From: Candidatus Alistipes avicola
Lineage (GTDB): Bacteria > Bacteroidota > Bacteroidia > Bacteroidales > Rikenellaceae
Assembly: GCA_019118565.1 (NCBI GenBank)
Contig: DWYR01000009.1
Coordinates: forward strand, 1 to 64,000
DNA: 64,000 nucleotides
Direction: 5' to 3'
A program made the translations under genes and the position numbers. Positions 56,781 to 64,000 of this stretch are shown piece by piece. Each line of letters opens with the position of its first letter. The first letter of the stretch is position 1. The notes under the pieces are model-generated. The model was not told the origin of the DNA, did not search any database, and worked only from the letters and a program-made list of their open reading frames with translations.

Positions 56781-57911
56781 ATGATCGATTTTCAAAAGAT
56801 ACCCTCTCCGTGTTACGTTCTGGACGAGGAGCTGCTCGAAAACAACCTGCGGGTGATCGACCGCGTCCGCCGGGAGAGCGGCGCCGAGATCATCGTGGCC
56901 CTGAAGGCCTGCGCTATGTGGAGCATCTTCCCCGAACTGGCCCGCCATTCGGATGGTGCGACGGCTTCGTCGGCCGCCGAGGCACGTCTGGTATTCGAGG
57001 AGTACGGGGCTCCGGCCCATACCTATGCCCCCGTCTATACGGATCGCAACATCGAGGAGATTCTGCGCTGCAGCGACCACATCACCTTTAACTCCCTCGC
57101 TCAGTTCGAGCGGTTCGGCCCGATGGCCCTGCTGCGGGGAATCTCGTGCGGCCTGCGGATCAATCCCGAATATTCGCCCGTGGAGACCGACCTTTACAAT
57201 CCGGCCATCCCGGGGTCGCGGCTGGGTATCGTCGCCGATCAGCTCAAGGAGTTGCCGGCCGGTATCGACGGCCTGCACTTTCATGTGTTGTGCGAATCGC
57301 GTCCGCAGCATCTGCGTCTTGCGCTTGAAGCGGTCGAAAAACGTTTCGGCCGGTTCCTCGACCGGATCAAGTGGCTCAATATGGGCGGCGGCCATCTGAT
57401 GACCCACAAGGATTACGATTGCGATGAGCTGATCGCTATCCTGCGCGACTTCAAACAGCGTCATCCCTCCCTGCGCTTGATTCTCGAGCCGGGCAGTGCC
57501 TTTACCTGGCGGACGGGCTATCTGGTTTCGACGGTCGAGGATATTGTCGAGAACGGGGGTGTGCATACGGCGATGCTCGACGTTTCGTTCGCCTGCCATA
57601 TGCCCGACTGTCTGGAGATGCCCTATAAACCGGCTATTCTGGGTGCGCACGATCCGCAACCAGGTGAGACAAACTGGCGCATGGGCGGTAACAGCTGCCT
57701 TGCCGGCGACTATTATGGCGACTGGGCTTTCGATCGCGAACCGAAGGTAGGCGATCGGATCGTTTTCGAGGATATGATTCACTACACGATGGTCAAGACG
57801 ACGATGTTCAACGGAGTGGCGCATCCCTCGATTGCAATTGCCCGCAAGAGTGGAAAAGTAGATATTATCAAAGAGTTCGGCTACGAGGATTTCAAATCGC
57901 GTATGTCGTAA
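56781..57911 (+). CDS. nspC: carboxynorspermidine decarboxylase
   Basis: IPSPCYVLDEELLENNL; VALKACAMWSIFPEL; HVLCES; LEPGSAFTWRTGYLV. Confidence 0.93.
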   Translation: MIDFQKIPSPCYVLDEELLENNLRVIDRVRRESGAEIIVALKACAMWSIFPELARHSDGATASSAAEARLVFEEYGAPAHTYAPVYTDRNIEEILRCSDHITFNSLAQFERFGPMALLRGISCGLRINPEYSPVETDLYNPAIPGSRLGIVADQLKELPAGIDGLHFHVLCESRPQHLRLALEAVEKRFGRFLDRIKWLNMGGGHLMTHKDYDCDELIAILRDFKQRHPSLRLILEPGSAFTWRTGYLVSTVEDIVENGGVHTAMLDVSFACHMPDCLEMPYKPAILGAHDPQPGETNWRMGGNSCLAGDYYGDWAFDREPKVGDRIVFEDMIHYTMVKTTMFNGVAHPSIAIARKSGKVDIIKEFGYEDFKSRMS

Positions 57912-57935
57912 CCTTAACCCTATACTGCAATTTCA

Positions 57936-59228
57936 ATGAAAGATTTTACACCTACCGCCTATACGTTGGTTTCGGTCGCTACTGGCCGCGAATTCGACGA
58001 TGAGGGCTGGCTCCTGGATGACAAACAGAGCGAAAAACCGACGTTGATCCGTACCCGGTATGCTTGCAAACAGCTCGATGTGAAACCGGAAGAGTATGGT
58101 ATTTACCGATTTGCAGACTGGCTGCCCATACGCCGTATGTTGCATGGGTCGAGTGCCCCGGTAACCTACAAGAGCCAGGGGCTGGCTTCGCATCTCGGAC
58201 TGGAGAATCTCTACATTACGTTCAATGGATATTTCCCGGCTATCGGGGCGAACATGACGACCTGTTCGTTCAAGGAGACGGAGGCATACAGTGTCTGCGC
58301 CCGGGTGAATGAGGAGGAGAGACGTATCCTGGTCGTTGCTTCGGCCGGAAATACGGCGCGTGCTTTCGCCAAGGTATGTTCCGAGAACCATATTCCGCTG
58401 CTGCTTTCGGTCCCGGCCGACAATCTGGATGCGCTGTGGTTCGAAGAGCCGCTTGATCCGTGTGTGAAACTGATCTGTGCCGAGAAGGGTGGCGACTATT
58501 TCGATGCCATTCATTTGAGCAACCTGGCTCTTCGCAGCGACCGTTTTTATCCCGAAGGCGGAGCCAAAAACGTCGCTCGTCGCGACGGTATGGGAACAAC
58601 CGTCCTTTCGGCCGCAACGACCATTGGCCGTATTCCGGACTACTATTTCCAGGCGGTCGGCAGCGGTACCGGAGCCATTGCTGCGTGGGAGGCCAATATG
58701 CGTCTGATCGAGGATGGCCGCTACGGGTCGAATTTGATGAAACTGATGGTTTCGCAGAATGCTCCCTTTGTGCCGATGCACGATGCGTGGCGGGTGGATT
58801 CGCGAGAGATGCTTCCGTACGACGAGGACAAGGCTCGCCGTGACGTGGAGATTATCGATGCGAAGGTGCTTTCGAACCGCAAGCCCCCCTATGGTTTGGC
58901 CGGCGGACTGTATGACGCGCTCAAGGCAACCGGAGGTGAGATGCTCGTAGCGACGAATGCGCAGGGCAGCAAGGCGCGTCGTTTGTTCCTCGATCTGGAG
59001 GGGGTGGATCTGCATCCGGCAGCCGGAATTGCAGTCGCATCGCTTATCAAGGCAGTCGGTGAGGGGAAAATTGACAAGGATGCCGTGGTGATGCTCAACA
59101 TTACGGGTGGTGGAGAGCAGCTCTTCAAGAAGGACAAGACGCTGTGGTATCTGAAACCGGATCACATTTTCCCGCTCAATCCGAATCCGGAAGAGGTTAT
59201 TCGGAAAGTAGAGTCGATGTTCGCTTAA
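57936..59228 (+). CDS. cysteate-synthase-like / threonine-synthase-like PLP enzyme
   Basis: PLP-Lys motif TTCSFKETEAYSV; VASAGNTARAFAKVC; VGSGTGAIAAWEAN. Confidence 0.78.
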   Translation: MKDFTPTAYTLVSVATGREFDDEGWLLDDKQSEKPTLIRTRYACKQLDVKPEEYGIYRFADWLPIRRMLHGSSAPVTYKSQGLASHLGLENLYITFNGYFPAIGANMTTCSFKETEAYSVCARVNEEERRILVVASAGNTARAFAKVCSENHIPLLLSVPADNLDALWFEEPLDPCVKLICAEKGGDYFDAIHLSNLALRSDRFYPEGGAKNVARRDGMGTTVLSAATTIGRIPDYYFQAVGSGTGAIAAWEANMRLIEDGRYGSNLMKLMVSQNAPFVPMHDAWRVDSREMLPYDEDKARRDVEIIDAKVLSNRKPPYGLAGGLYDALKATGGEMLVATNAQGSKARRLFLDLEGVDLHPAAGIAVASLIKAVGEGKIDKDAVVMLNITGGGEQLFKKDKTLWYLKPDHIFPLNPNPEEVIRKVESMFA

Positions 59229-59913: not shown

Positions 59914-60561
59914 ATGGTAATAGGTTATTTGCGAGTCAGTACGGGGAAACAACACCCGGCCAATCAACAGGATGAAATCAAGCGTTTTGCATCAAGTCAG
60001 AACTGGACGATTGACGCGTGGGTTACGGAGATCGTCAGTGGAAAGAAAAGTGAACGAGACCGTAAGCTGGGGGCTTTACTGCGGCGGATGAAGCGTGGGG
60101 ATACGCTTGTCGTGACGGAAATATCGCGATTGAGCCGTACCCTTACGGATGTAATGGCGATTATGGGAAAATGCTTGAAGAAGGGGATTAACCTCTATAC
60201 GACCAAAGAGGGGTATACGTTCGACAATTCGATCAACAGCAAGGTGCTGTGCTTTGCATTCGGATTGGTTGCCGAGATCGAACGAAATCTGATCTCGATG
60301 CGCACGAAAGAGGCCCTGGCATTGCGTAAGGCCGAGGGGATGGTGTTGGGACGCCGAAAAGGAAGCTATACCAAATATAACATATTGGTGGATAATCGGC
60401 ATGTTGTTATTCAGATGTTGAATCAGAACAAGTCGATCAATGATATTTGCAAATATTTTTCCCTTTCGCGGGATACGTTCGATAAGTTTCGGAAGAGTTA
60501 TCCGTCTATTCAGCAGGCTGTTGCAAAGAAAGAAATGCGAAGAATGAACGGAAGACAATGA
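59914..60561 (+). CDS. serine site-specific recombinase (resolvase/invertase family)
   Basis: MVIGYLRVSTGKQHPANQQDEI (catalytic Ser), VTEISRLSRTLTDVMAIM, GLVAEIERNLISMRTKEALA, C-terminal HTH. Confidence 0.92.
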   Translation: MVIGYLRVSTGKQHPANQQDEIKRFASSQNWTIDAWVTEIVSGKKSERDRKLGALLRRMKRGDTLVVTEISRLSRTLTDVMAIMGKCLKKGINLYTTKEGYTFDNSINSKVLCFAFGLVAEIERNLISMRTKEALALRKAEGMVLGRRKGSYTKYNILVDNRHVVIQMLNQNKSINDICKYFSLSRDTFDKFRKSYPSIQQAVAKKEMRRMNGRQ

Positions 60562-60585
60562 AATGGAAGCGCATTTTTCTCTCGA

Positions 60586-60626
60586 AAAACAGAGCCCCGC
60601 CCATCCGGGATGGGCTCCCTGTTTTA
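60586..60626. terminator. bidirectional terminator between recombinase and candidate switch
   Basis: AAAACAGaGCCCcgcccatccgggatGGGCtccCTGTTTT hairpin. Confidence 0.7.
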
Positions 60627-60837
60627 AAGTTGGTTTATTCCTTCAAATATATACAATATTTATATATAATCCAAATTATAGTGTGACTTTATTCCTCTAC
60701 CATTGTCCAGACGCATCAGAAGCGCATTTTTACCATATCATCCTCTTTTTTATATCCTACTTTAATCATACAACCTATTAAAACCAACGTCATAATCCGA
60801 TAGGATAGAGTATAACAACCTGTAAAATAGCAGGTTG
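60619..60837. promoter_or_regulatory. candidate invertible promoter region (OFF orientation)
   Basis: Minus-strand TTTG (60672-60675)-N20-TATATTTG (60644-60651); flanking inverted GTTGGTTT (60629-60636)/AAACCAAC (60781-60788); further imperfect arm at 60814-60830. Confidence 0.55.
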
Positions 60838-60864
60838 GCTCTATTCCGGATGTTTGTTGTCAAA

Positions 60865-62229
60865 ATGAGAGAGTGTTATAAAATATTGCTATATGCAATT
60901 TTATTGACAGGAATCACTCCCTTGTGGGGGCAGGAGTCGGCCGACTCTTTGTCTGTCTATTTCCGGTATGGATGTGCCGTGGTGGAGCCATCCCTGCGGG
61001 AGAATTGCCGGACGATCGAGACTATCGAAAATCTTTTGAGAGAATCCGAAGCAGACTCCTCTCGGCGTTGTGTGGAAATGCGATTGGAAGGAGGGGCTTC
61101 TCCCGATGGAACGACAGCGGCCAATATGCGGTTGAGCCGGAAGCGAGTTTTTTCGATGCTGGACTATCTTCGAGGAAGGATCTCTGTCCCCGATTCGTTG
61201 ATCTCGGTTCGGGCCGTGGGGGTCGATTGGAACGGGTTGGTGTTGTCGGTGGAAAAAGATACACTTTGTCCGGCTCGGGCAGAGGTGCTGGATATTCTTT
61301 ATCATACGCCCGAATGGATATACGATGCTCGGAATCGAATTGTGGATGGGCGCAAGAGACGCTTGATGCAACTCCATGGAGGAGTCCCTTACAACTATTT
61401 GCGGGAAAAGTTTTTCCCCGATCTGCGCAAAGTCAGCATTGTGTTGCGTTATGAGCCCGCTGTGACGGACCTGCAGGAGGAGTATCCCGGTTTTCTGGCC
61501 GTTTCGAGCGATGCTTCGGAGACCGCTGAGCCGGAACGGGTAGAATCTTGCGTTCGATTGCCGGAAGTGTCGTCCGAATCTCCGTCGGTATCGACGGTTG
61601 ACGCCGGGACGGTCCCCTTGTGCGAGACCTCTCCGGTCGAGTCTCCTACTTCGAGCGATTCGGTTGTTACGGAGAGGAACGTTTTGCTTGAGTCGACGGG
61701 GAGAGCGATCCCTCCGTTGCATCGGATGGCTATTAAAACGAATCTATTGTATGATGCTTTGCTGATGCCCTCCTTGGAGGTGGAGTATCGGATTGATGAC
61801 CGTTGGTCCGTGGCTGTGGAGGGAAGCGTCGCCTGGTGGTCTAAGAATCGGACCCATAAATATTACCAGATTGCGACGATTGTCCCCGAAGGCCGCTATT
61901 GGTTCGGTGTCAAAAAGCCCTGGCACGGCCACTATGTCGGAGTATTTGTCGGCGGCAGTTGGTACGATTTGGAAAACGGTGCACGAGGTTACAAGGGGGA
62001 GTTCTTCATGACAGGCATCAGTTACGGATATATGTTCCCGGTCGGACGTTCGCTCTCGTTGGAGGCCGGTCTTGGCGTGGGCTTTCTTCGCACCTCTTAC
62101 GAGGAATACTTGCCCATAGACGGACATTACGTCTATCAGCAGACCAGCCGTACCAATTGGTTCGGACCGGTGAGACTGAAATTAGCCCTCGTATGGTGTC
62201 TTTGGAATCAAAACAAAGCAGGAAAGTGA
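60865..62229 (+). CDS. DUF3575-like outer-membrane protein, fimbrial operon
   Basis: Signal peptide; RMAIKTNLLYDALLMPSLEVEYRIDDRWSVAVEGSVAWWSKNRTHKYYQIATIVPEGRYWF. Confidence 0.82.
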   Translation: MRECYKILLYAILLTGITPLWGQESADSLSVYFRYGCAVVEPSLRENCRTIETIENLLRESEADSSRRCVEMRLEGGASPDGTTAANMRLSRKRVFSMLDYLRGRISVPDSLISVRAVGVDWNGLVLSVEKDTLCPARAEVLDILYHTPEWIYDARNRIVDGRKRRLMQLHGGVPYNYLREKFFPDLRKVSIVLRYEPAVTDLQEEYPGFLAVSSDASETAEPERVESCVRLPEVSSESPSVSTVDAGTVPLCETSPVESPTSSDSVVTERNVLLESTGRAIPPLHRMAIKTNLLYDALLMPSLEVEYRIDDRWSVAVEGSVAWWSKNRTHKYYQIATIVPEGRYWFGVKKPWHGHYVGVFVGGSWYDLENGARGYKGEFFMTGISYGYMFPVGRSLSLEAGLGVGFLRTSYEEYLPIDGHYVYQQTSRTNWFGPVRLKLALVWCLWNQNKAGK

Positions 62230-63245
62230 TGGGTCGCAAAGGAATCGTATTCATATTCCTGCTATGCGGGAGTATTTTATTGACCGGCTGTCGTAAGGAT
62301 CTTTGTTACGACCACGATGGGCACGGTCTCAAAGTAAGTGCTTTTTTGATCCCCGATTGGGAGCAGGAGTGGGAGCGAGATTATGGGATGGAGTGGCAAT
62401 CGAATTGGCCTGAAAAACACGAAATAGAGTATGATTTGCTTCGTCCGTCGATCGCTTCGGGCATTGCGGCGTTCGTCTACCATGGGGACGGGTCGTATTC
62501 GGAACGCCATTTGGAGTCCGACGGCGGAGAGCTCCCAATGGTGACTGCCGGAGAGAAATCCATTCTGCTTTGTAATGACGATACCCATTATATCGTTTTC
62601 GGGAATTTGGATGCATCGGCCGAAGCGACCGCTACGACGCGTTCCCGTAGTCGTTCGACGTATAATGCGGAGCATGCAGAGGAACGAACCGTCAATGCCC
62701 CCGATATCCTTTACGGAGCGTGGATCGACCGCTTTTCATCGGTTCCGTCGTCAAAGCCGATTCCGCTTCCCGTGACAATGCATCCGTTGGTATACACTTA
62801 TTTGATTCGGTATGAATTTTCCGAGGGGTTCGAACATGTTTCGCTGGCCCGCGGGGCGCTCTCGGGAATGGCCCGTTCGGTATATCTTCAGACCGGGCGA
62901 ACGGGGGAAGAGCCGGCAACGATTCTTTTCGATTGCGAGTTGAAGGATTTTGGGGCGGAGGTGCGCCTAACGTCATTCGGGGTTCCCGATTTCCCGGGGG
63001 ATCATTACCTGTTAAACCAGACACCCCATCAGCATGGGCTTAATCTGGAGGTTATGCTCAAGAATGGGAAGATGAAACGTTTTGAATTCGATGTGTCGGA
63101 TCAGTTGGTATCACAACCGCGCGGAGGAGTCATTACGGTTGACAATCTGGTCGTAACGGACGAGGAAGCGGGCGGTGATGCCGGGTTCGACGTGACTGTG
63201 GAAGGCTGGGGTGAATACGAAGATATAGAGTTGCCTTTGGATTGA
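62229..63245 (+). CDS. DUF5119-like lipoprotein, fimbrial operon
   Basis: Lipobox SILLTGCRKDLCYDHDGHG; TGATG stop/start overlap with upstream gene. Confidence 0.8.
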   Translation: MGRKGIVFIFLLCGSILLTGCRKDLCYDHDGHGLKVSAFLIPDWEQEWERDYGMEWQSNWPEKHEIEYDLLRPSIASGIAAFVYHGDGSYSERHLESDGGELPMVTAGEKSILLCNDDTHYIVFGNLDASAEATATTRSRSRSTYNAEHAEERTVNAPDILYGAWIDRFSSVPSSKPIPLPVTMHPLVYTYLIRYEFSEGFEHVSLARGALSGMARSVYLQTGRTGEEPATILFDCELKDFGAEVRLTSFGVPDFPGDHYLLNQTPHQHGLNLEVMLKNGKMKRFEFDVSDQLVSQPRGGVITVDNLVVTDEEAGGDAGFDVTVEGWGEYEDIELPLD

Positions 63246-63291: not shown

Positions 63292-64000
63292 ATGGGAAAA
63301 AATTTATTTGTACTGGCTGTATTCGTCGCGATGCTGACCGGATGCAGCAAAACGGAAACGGTTGAACAGGCTCAGGGTGGAGCTATCGGTTTTACGAAAG
63401 CCTACATCGGGAATGCAGTCGATTCGCGAGCTATCAGCGTAATCGATCAGTCGAATATCAGCGAATTCATCGTTTACGGCGGTTACAATGACATGGAGCA
63501 TGTTTTCAACGGGGTAACGGTGAGTGGAACGGCCGGCGCGGACGATTGGACTTATGACGTGACCCGCTATTGGGTCCCCGGCAAGGATTACAAATTCGCC
63601 GCCTATGCTCCGAGCACTGTGACCGGCAACGGGACGGTTGAAACGGATTTCGCAAACGGAGCTTTGAATTTCAAGGGGTATACGTCGGATCCGACCCATC
63701 AGAACGACCTGATTTATGCAACGGCAACGCAGAAAACGAATGATCCCTTGGTAATTTCGCCCGACAAGATCCAGTTCCGCTTCGGGCATCTGCTTTCGAT
63801 GGTGAAGTTTACTTTCAACAGCGGCTTTGGCAACGATATTAAGGTGACGGTTAGCAACCTGAATGTTTCCGGCATGATCGCCGACGGCGATTATACGGGT
63901 AGTACGCAGGCTTGGACTCCGGGTTCGAATACCGTATCCGAGGGGGCAGCCTTCACGGAGTTGGCATCGACCGAGGCGATTAACCGTACCAGTGGAAATC
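63292..64000 (+). CDS. fimbrillin-family lipoprotein, truncated by window edge
   Basis: MGKNLFVLAVFVAMLTGCSKTETVEQAQGGAIGF...; open to the right edge. Confidence 0.82.
   Translation, partial: MGKNLFVLAVFVAMLTGCSKTETVEQAQGGAIGFTKAYIGNAVDSRAISVIDQSNISEFIVYGGYNDMEHVFNGVTVSGTAGADDWTYDVTRYWVPGKDYKFAAYAPSTVTGNGTVETDFANGALNFKGYTSDPTHQNDLIYATATQKTNDPLVISPDKIQFRFGHLLSMVKFTFNSGFGNDIKVTVSNLNVSGMIADGDYTGSTQAWTPGSNTVSEGAAFTELASTEAINRTSGN

Follow-up and report, generated by a model that had tools for sequence, protein, structure and literature searches.

A probable invertible promoter switch between an Mpi-like serine recombinase and a type V pilus operon in Candidatus Alistipes avicola

The window considered here (the whole 64,000-nucleotide stretch of DNA that was analysed) sits on a 257-kb contig, and the genome scanned alongside it comprises 1.81 Mb. 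Near its right-hand end, at 59914–60561 on the plus strand, lies the gene for a 215-residue, Mpi-like small serine recombinase (DNA invertase), whose resolvase domain (Pfam Resolvase, PF00239, 3.9e-36) is that of the small serine recombinases. Alignment identifies the catalytic residues as Ser9, in the motif YLRVST, together with Arg7, Arg72 and Arg75 (ISRLSR). The protein aligns with the solved structures of Gin invertase and gamma-delta resolvase and retains the Ser9 motif and both of the ISRLSR arginines; the HTH_7 match is weak (17.6 bits vs 23.8). The best model for the recombinase is NCBIfam Mpi (NF009949), at 254.2 bits over residues 1–197, and the curated cut-off of 272 bits for that equivalog is not reached. 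Because of this shortfall, and because its action appears local to its own locus, we do not class the enzyme as Mpi, although the locus would work in the manner of Mpi. A whole-genome search returned a single protein of its family.

Downstream, and likewise on the plus strand, a set of genes begins at ATG 60865; this start and the recombinase end at 60561 are both as the first-pass annotation had placed them. The first gene (60865–62229) encodes a 454-residue DUF3575 protein (PF12099, 1.4e-37) with an apparent N-terminal signal peptide, the second (62229–63245) a DUF5119 lipoprotein (PF17145, 1.1e-28), and the third (63292–64000, continuing beyond the window end) an Mfa-like fimbrillin (PF13149, 1.3e-17). 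Beyond the window there follow two further Mfa-like proteins and then a FimA/DUF4906 protein (the downstream genes in L115). With three Mfa-like proteins, FimA/DUF4906, DUF5119 and DUF3575, this is a complete type V pilus operon. The nearest relatives of both recombinase and operon are found in Alistipes and other Rikenellaceae. The operon leader also holds a perfect 7-bp stem, CAACCTG/CAGGTTG, at 60816–60837, which stands 27 nt ahead of the ATG.

Only one near-consensus promoter, TTTG-N20-TATATTTG, lies within 700 bp of the recombinase stop, and it is on the minus strand. Its –33 box, TTTG, occupies 60675–60672 and, after a 20-nt spacer, its –7 box, TATATTTG, occupies 60651–60644, so that it points away from the operon, as had been noticed earlier. 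The accompanying statement that no comparable plus-strand promoter precedes the operon agrees with our scan, in which no plus-strand Bacteroidota-consensus promoter was found over the same 700 bp. The two-way intrinsic terminator proposed at 60586–60626, in the gap between the recombinase and the promoter, was called by a terminator scan on both strands, and the stretch from the recombinase end to the left repeat arm folds strongly (–26.7 kcal/mol on the plus strand, –23.9 kcal/mol on the minus strand). A strong hairpin is present at the same place in the Alistipes-type relatives L034, L035, L036 and L037, as well as in L049; none was found between recombinase and left arm in L051 and L054, which are Bacteroides/Phocaeicola loci. 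As sequenced, the operon would be OFF, since the sole good promoter fires toward the recombinase and its transcription would be halted by the terminator.

The promoter lies between inverted repeats, one of the features of an inverton, with exact arms GTTGGTTT at 60629–60636 and AAACCAAC at 60781–60788. The earlier claim that the promoter is so bracketed is thus borne out as to the presence of the pair, but the exact match between the arms is 8 bp only, which is not by itself beyond chance: when the intergenic DNA was shuffled 1000 times with its dinucleotides preserved, an exact inverted pair of 8 bp enclosed the position of the promoter in 253 cases. Because 25% of shuffles match it, we do not accept the 8-bp repeat alone as proof of anything. 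The same frequency would suit a fixed minus-strand promoter, flanked by repeats through chance and never inverted, that makes a short RNA ending at the terminator, and promoter and terminator would indeed bound such a transcript. The repeat pair gains its weight from its relatives rather than from its own length.

To examine these relatives, 80 related loci, nearly all from Bacteroidales, were drawn from genome contigs by way of the recombinase. Many of them feature inverted pairs of the form GTT[GC]GTT that lie 110–165 bp apart, immediately past the recombinase gene, and enclose a promoter. In 16 distinct sequences the promoter box stands 8 nt from the core, and in nine it stands 20 nt away, while every other spacing between 0 and 33 nt is represented by one sequence or by none. 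A spacing of 20 corresponds to 8 plus one 12-bp unit, and the spacing in the window is 8. Core and promoter box at a spacing of 8 occur together only once in the 1.81-Mb genome, at the window locus, which is also the only place in the genome with a strict core pair in AT-rich intergenic DNA. A second cluster of spacings, at 34–35 nt, comprises six sequences (for example L107:7800 and L144:2206) and may represent a subfamily with another geometry.

These core pairs allow the arms in the window to be chosen. The first-pass annotation had offered an alternative, imperfect pair, 60619–60635 versus 60814–60830; its right arm has no family core and it breaks the family spacing, and we therefore reject it and take the GTTGGTT pair to be the right one. 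A 26-position site matrix, built from the arms of relatives, describes the left recombination site as 60618–60643 on the plus strand (core GTTGGTT at 60629–60635, 20.9 bits) and the right site as 60774–60799 on the minus strand (core AACCAAC at 60782–60788, 13.3 bits). The left arm is the second-best match to this matrix anywhere in the 1.81-Mb genome. The site consensus, TTTGTTTAAACG TT GGTTTAATCCTA, is symmetrical at 8 of 12 positions about core positions 2–3, and such symmetry about a central TT fits the expectation for a serine recombinase site.

The disparity between the arms (13.3 bits vs 20.9), together with the short exact match, is what one would expect of a switch that worked once but has since become locked, its sites decayed, chiefly in the right arm, and its operon silent or otherwise driven. 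Set against that reading are the intact recombinase frame with its catalytic residues, the retention of the core and central TT in both arms, the near-consensus promoter and the exact 8-nt geometry, and we judge a locked switch to be improbable.

Comparison of orientation in relatives, which the first-pass annotation had proposed as a check, finds both orientations among orthologous loci of related species. Four loci have recombinase and operon in common: the window, L031, L034 and L036. The promoter faces the recombinase (OFF) in the window and L036, and faces the operon (ON) in L031 and L034. Segment interiors were aligned both directly and with one copy inverted, and the results were judged by comparison with 500 dinucleotide shuffles. 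Pairs in unlike states align when one member is inverted, with z = 9.3 for L034–L036 (direct, 2.1), 8.2 for L031–L036 (direct, –0.4) and 6.1 for the window and L034 (direct, 0.3), whereas the pair L031–L034, both ON, aligns directly (z = 5.7; inverted, –0.4). The window and L031 (z = 0.6) and the window and L036 in the same orientation (z = 1.5) give no significant alignment, being too diverged to tell. The inverted-only alignment of pairs in unlike states argues that, as these species diverged, the segment has flipped between flanking genes that stayed in place.

Among recombinase-adjacent loci bearing the signature, several of them near-duplicates, 17 are OFF (the window included) and two are ON. 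A third ON copy may be L042, whose core is slightly different. In L042 (JAGBEH010000001.1), relatives of the window genes at 56781–59225 are found not upstream of the recombinase but 6–8 kb beyond it on the downstream side, and the neighbourhood has therefore been rearranged. When 180 genomes of the genus were searched at the DNA level, no alignment from another genome spanned the segment. Two kinds of apparent match were set aside, namely a 43-bp match at C3:3438–3480, an AT-rich promoter region of the ordinary sort that has no arms, and four matches to the left-arm 18-mer in viral contigs, which are due to chance, the locus itself being absent there.

Footprints of inversion are seen in Bacteroides/Phocaeicola loci. 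L051 and L053 form one group, and L054, L055 and L056 another, within each of which identity is 100% throughout the recombinase gene and over 1 kb of operon. Among these five loci the number of 12-bp site units per arm varies from one to three (~0–210 nt past the recombinase stop), and some loci have the unit GTTGGTTWAATC in the left arm, whereas others have it in the right arm in inverted form. In a simulation that permits only inversions between cores, the changes from L051 to L053 and from L055 to L056 each take exactly two inversions. Interconversion requires a crossover at or next to the core GTT: offsets of 0 to 3 suit both pairs, and an offset of –1 also suits L051/L053. Neither L055 nor L056 could be interconverted with L054 within three inversions, so base change or gene conversion must also have been at work there.

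The bounding of the crossover to GTT in this simulation and the symmetry of the site about two central base pairs together lead us to place the window crossover, as a prediction from sequence comparison, at TT 60630–60631, with its partner at 60786–60787. The predicted invertible segment, 60632–60785, lies between these crossover points and is the stretch that matches L034 only when inverted. Computed inversion puts the –33 and –7 boxes at about 60742–60745 and 60766–60773. The earlier expectation that inversion would bring the promoter before the operon thus holds as to direction, for the promoter becomes operon-facing, but the distance from the end of the –7 box to the ATG is 91 nt and not the 50–85 nt first estimated.

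A fixed promoter with fortuitous repeats would leave unexplained the conserved spacing between arm and promoter, the orientations seen in orthologues and the shuttling of units between arms, and we give that reading almost no credence. The same three lines of evidence support the original proposal of an invertible promoter caught in its OFF orientation. The locus is very probably an on/off phase-variation switch of the type V pilus operon, worked by the adjacent serine invertase.

That the adjacent recombinase acts on these sites in this species we infer from the closeness of gene and sites, from the family of the enzyme and from the site motif held in common. It might instead be that another recombinase flips the segment in trans while the neighbouring gene serves other sites. 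One B. fragilis Mpi flips 13 scattered regions (PMC4747536, PMC5903667), so gene and site need not adjoin. Because only one protein of the family was found in the genome, and relatives with the same recombinase have the same site motif adjoining it, action in trans seems to us very improbable.

With the neighbouring enzyme as the likely actor, the invertase encoded at 59914–60561 would bind the two 26-bp sites, each made up of two half-sites around the central TT, make a 2-bp staggered cut and flip the segment of ~154 bp. In the resulting ON state, the relocated boxes would drive transcription of the operon from 91 nt before its ATG, and operon transcription would be expected to follow the orientation of the segment. 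The 26-bp left site, centred on TT, ends at 60643, just where the –7 box starts (60644), 8 nt from the core. Because the box abuts the site edge, recombinase sitting on the site might obstruct the promoter or hinder transcription initiation. In relatives, the arms can be pictured as ladders of 12-bp units that would slide from one arm to the other on misregistered inversion, altering the number of units between promoter and operon; unit number in the arms of L051–L056 may tune expression. A switch that is in these ways more than binary, both self-occluding and graded by unit number, is a possibility we raise only tentatively and consider rather doubtful.

For B. fragilis, control of invertible promoters by Mpi and by tyrosine recombinases is well documented (PMC4747536, PMC12632263). 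The window locus is well supported as a new example of this known kind of switch. Of the 13 scattered regions inverted by B. fragilis Mpi, seven are capsule promoters (PMC4747536). Like the window locus, the Mpi system combines a small serine recombinase, a short AT-rich segment bearing a Bacteroidota promoter and a surface-structure target, and a published primer for the B. fragilis PSA promoter includes ACGAACGT, the core in its GTTCGTT form (PMC10939037). Unlike Mpi, the window recombinase adjoins its own pilus operon, and away from this locus there is at most a single candidate site, a weaker one. The phase-variable fimbria-like locus of B. fragilis (Weinacht 2004, as cited in PMC12632263) likewise has, on that account, an invertible promoter before fimbria-like surface proteins, with tyrosine recombinases in place of the serine enzyme found here. 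In Tsr19/BF2766 of B. fragilis, as in the window, a recombinase lies beside its own promoter; repeat copies between promoter and genes vary in number, inversely correlated with expression (PMC4747536), a variation comparable to the shuttling 12-bp units of L051–L056. That system differs in employing a tyrosine recombinase and in its exopolysaccharide target, whereas in the window a single site lies on each side. Hin and Gin share with the window enzyme the serine recombinase fold and a 26-bp recombination site (hixL, PMC4817059); their target genes differ from those in the window, and wild-type Hin requires Fis and an enhancer.

The strict 8-nt rule and the mapping of a crossover from natural variants may be new; our search of the literature was brief and we claim no priority. 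Type V pili are surface fibres; B. fragilis and P. gingivalis apart, little is known, to our knowledge, of how they are switched on and off. The locus pairs a pilus operon with an Mpi-like invertase encoded beside it, in Alistipes as well as in other genera of the Bacteroidales, and it provides a base-level model of the recombination site, 26 bp with a central TT. The succession of GTT[GC]GTT, 8 nt and promoter box is a simple signature with which such switches can be found and their state read straight from assemblies.

Scanning the genome with the site matrix returned, besides the window locus, one other strong pair, G000:C23:54223–54401 (L212:14223–14401), a second candidate switch with arms of 17.3 and 19.4 bits and a core gap of 143. 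The window recombinase may have this candidate as a second target. A hairpin lies upstream of it, and its minus-strand promoter faces away from a lipoprotein gene (ATG 54444), the reading frame of which is apparently interrupted after 78 codons; the spacing from core to promoter box is here 19, not 20.
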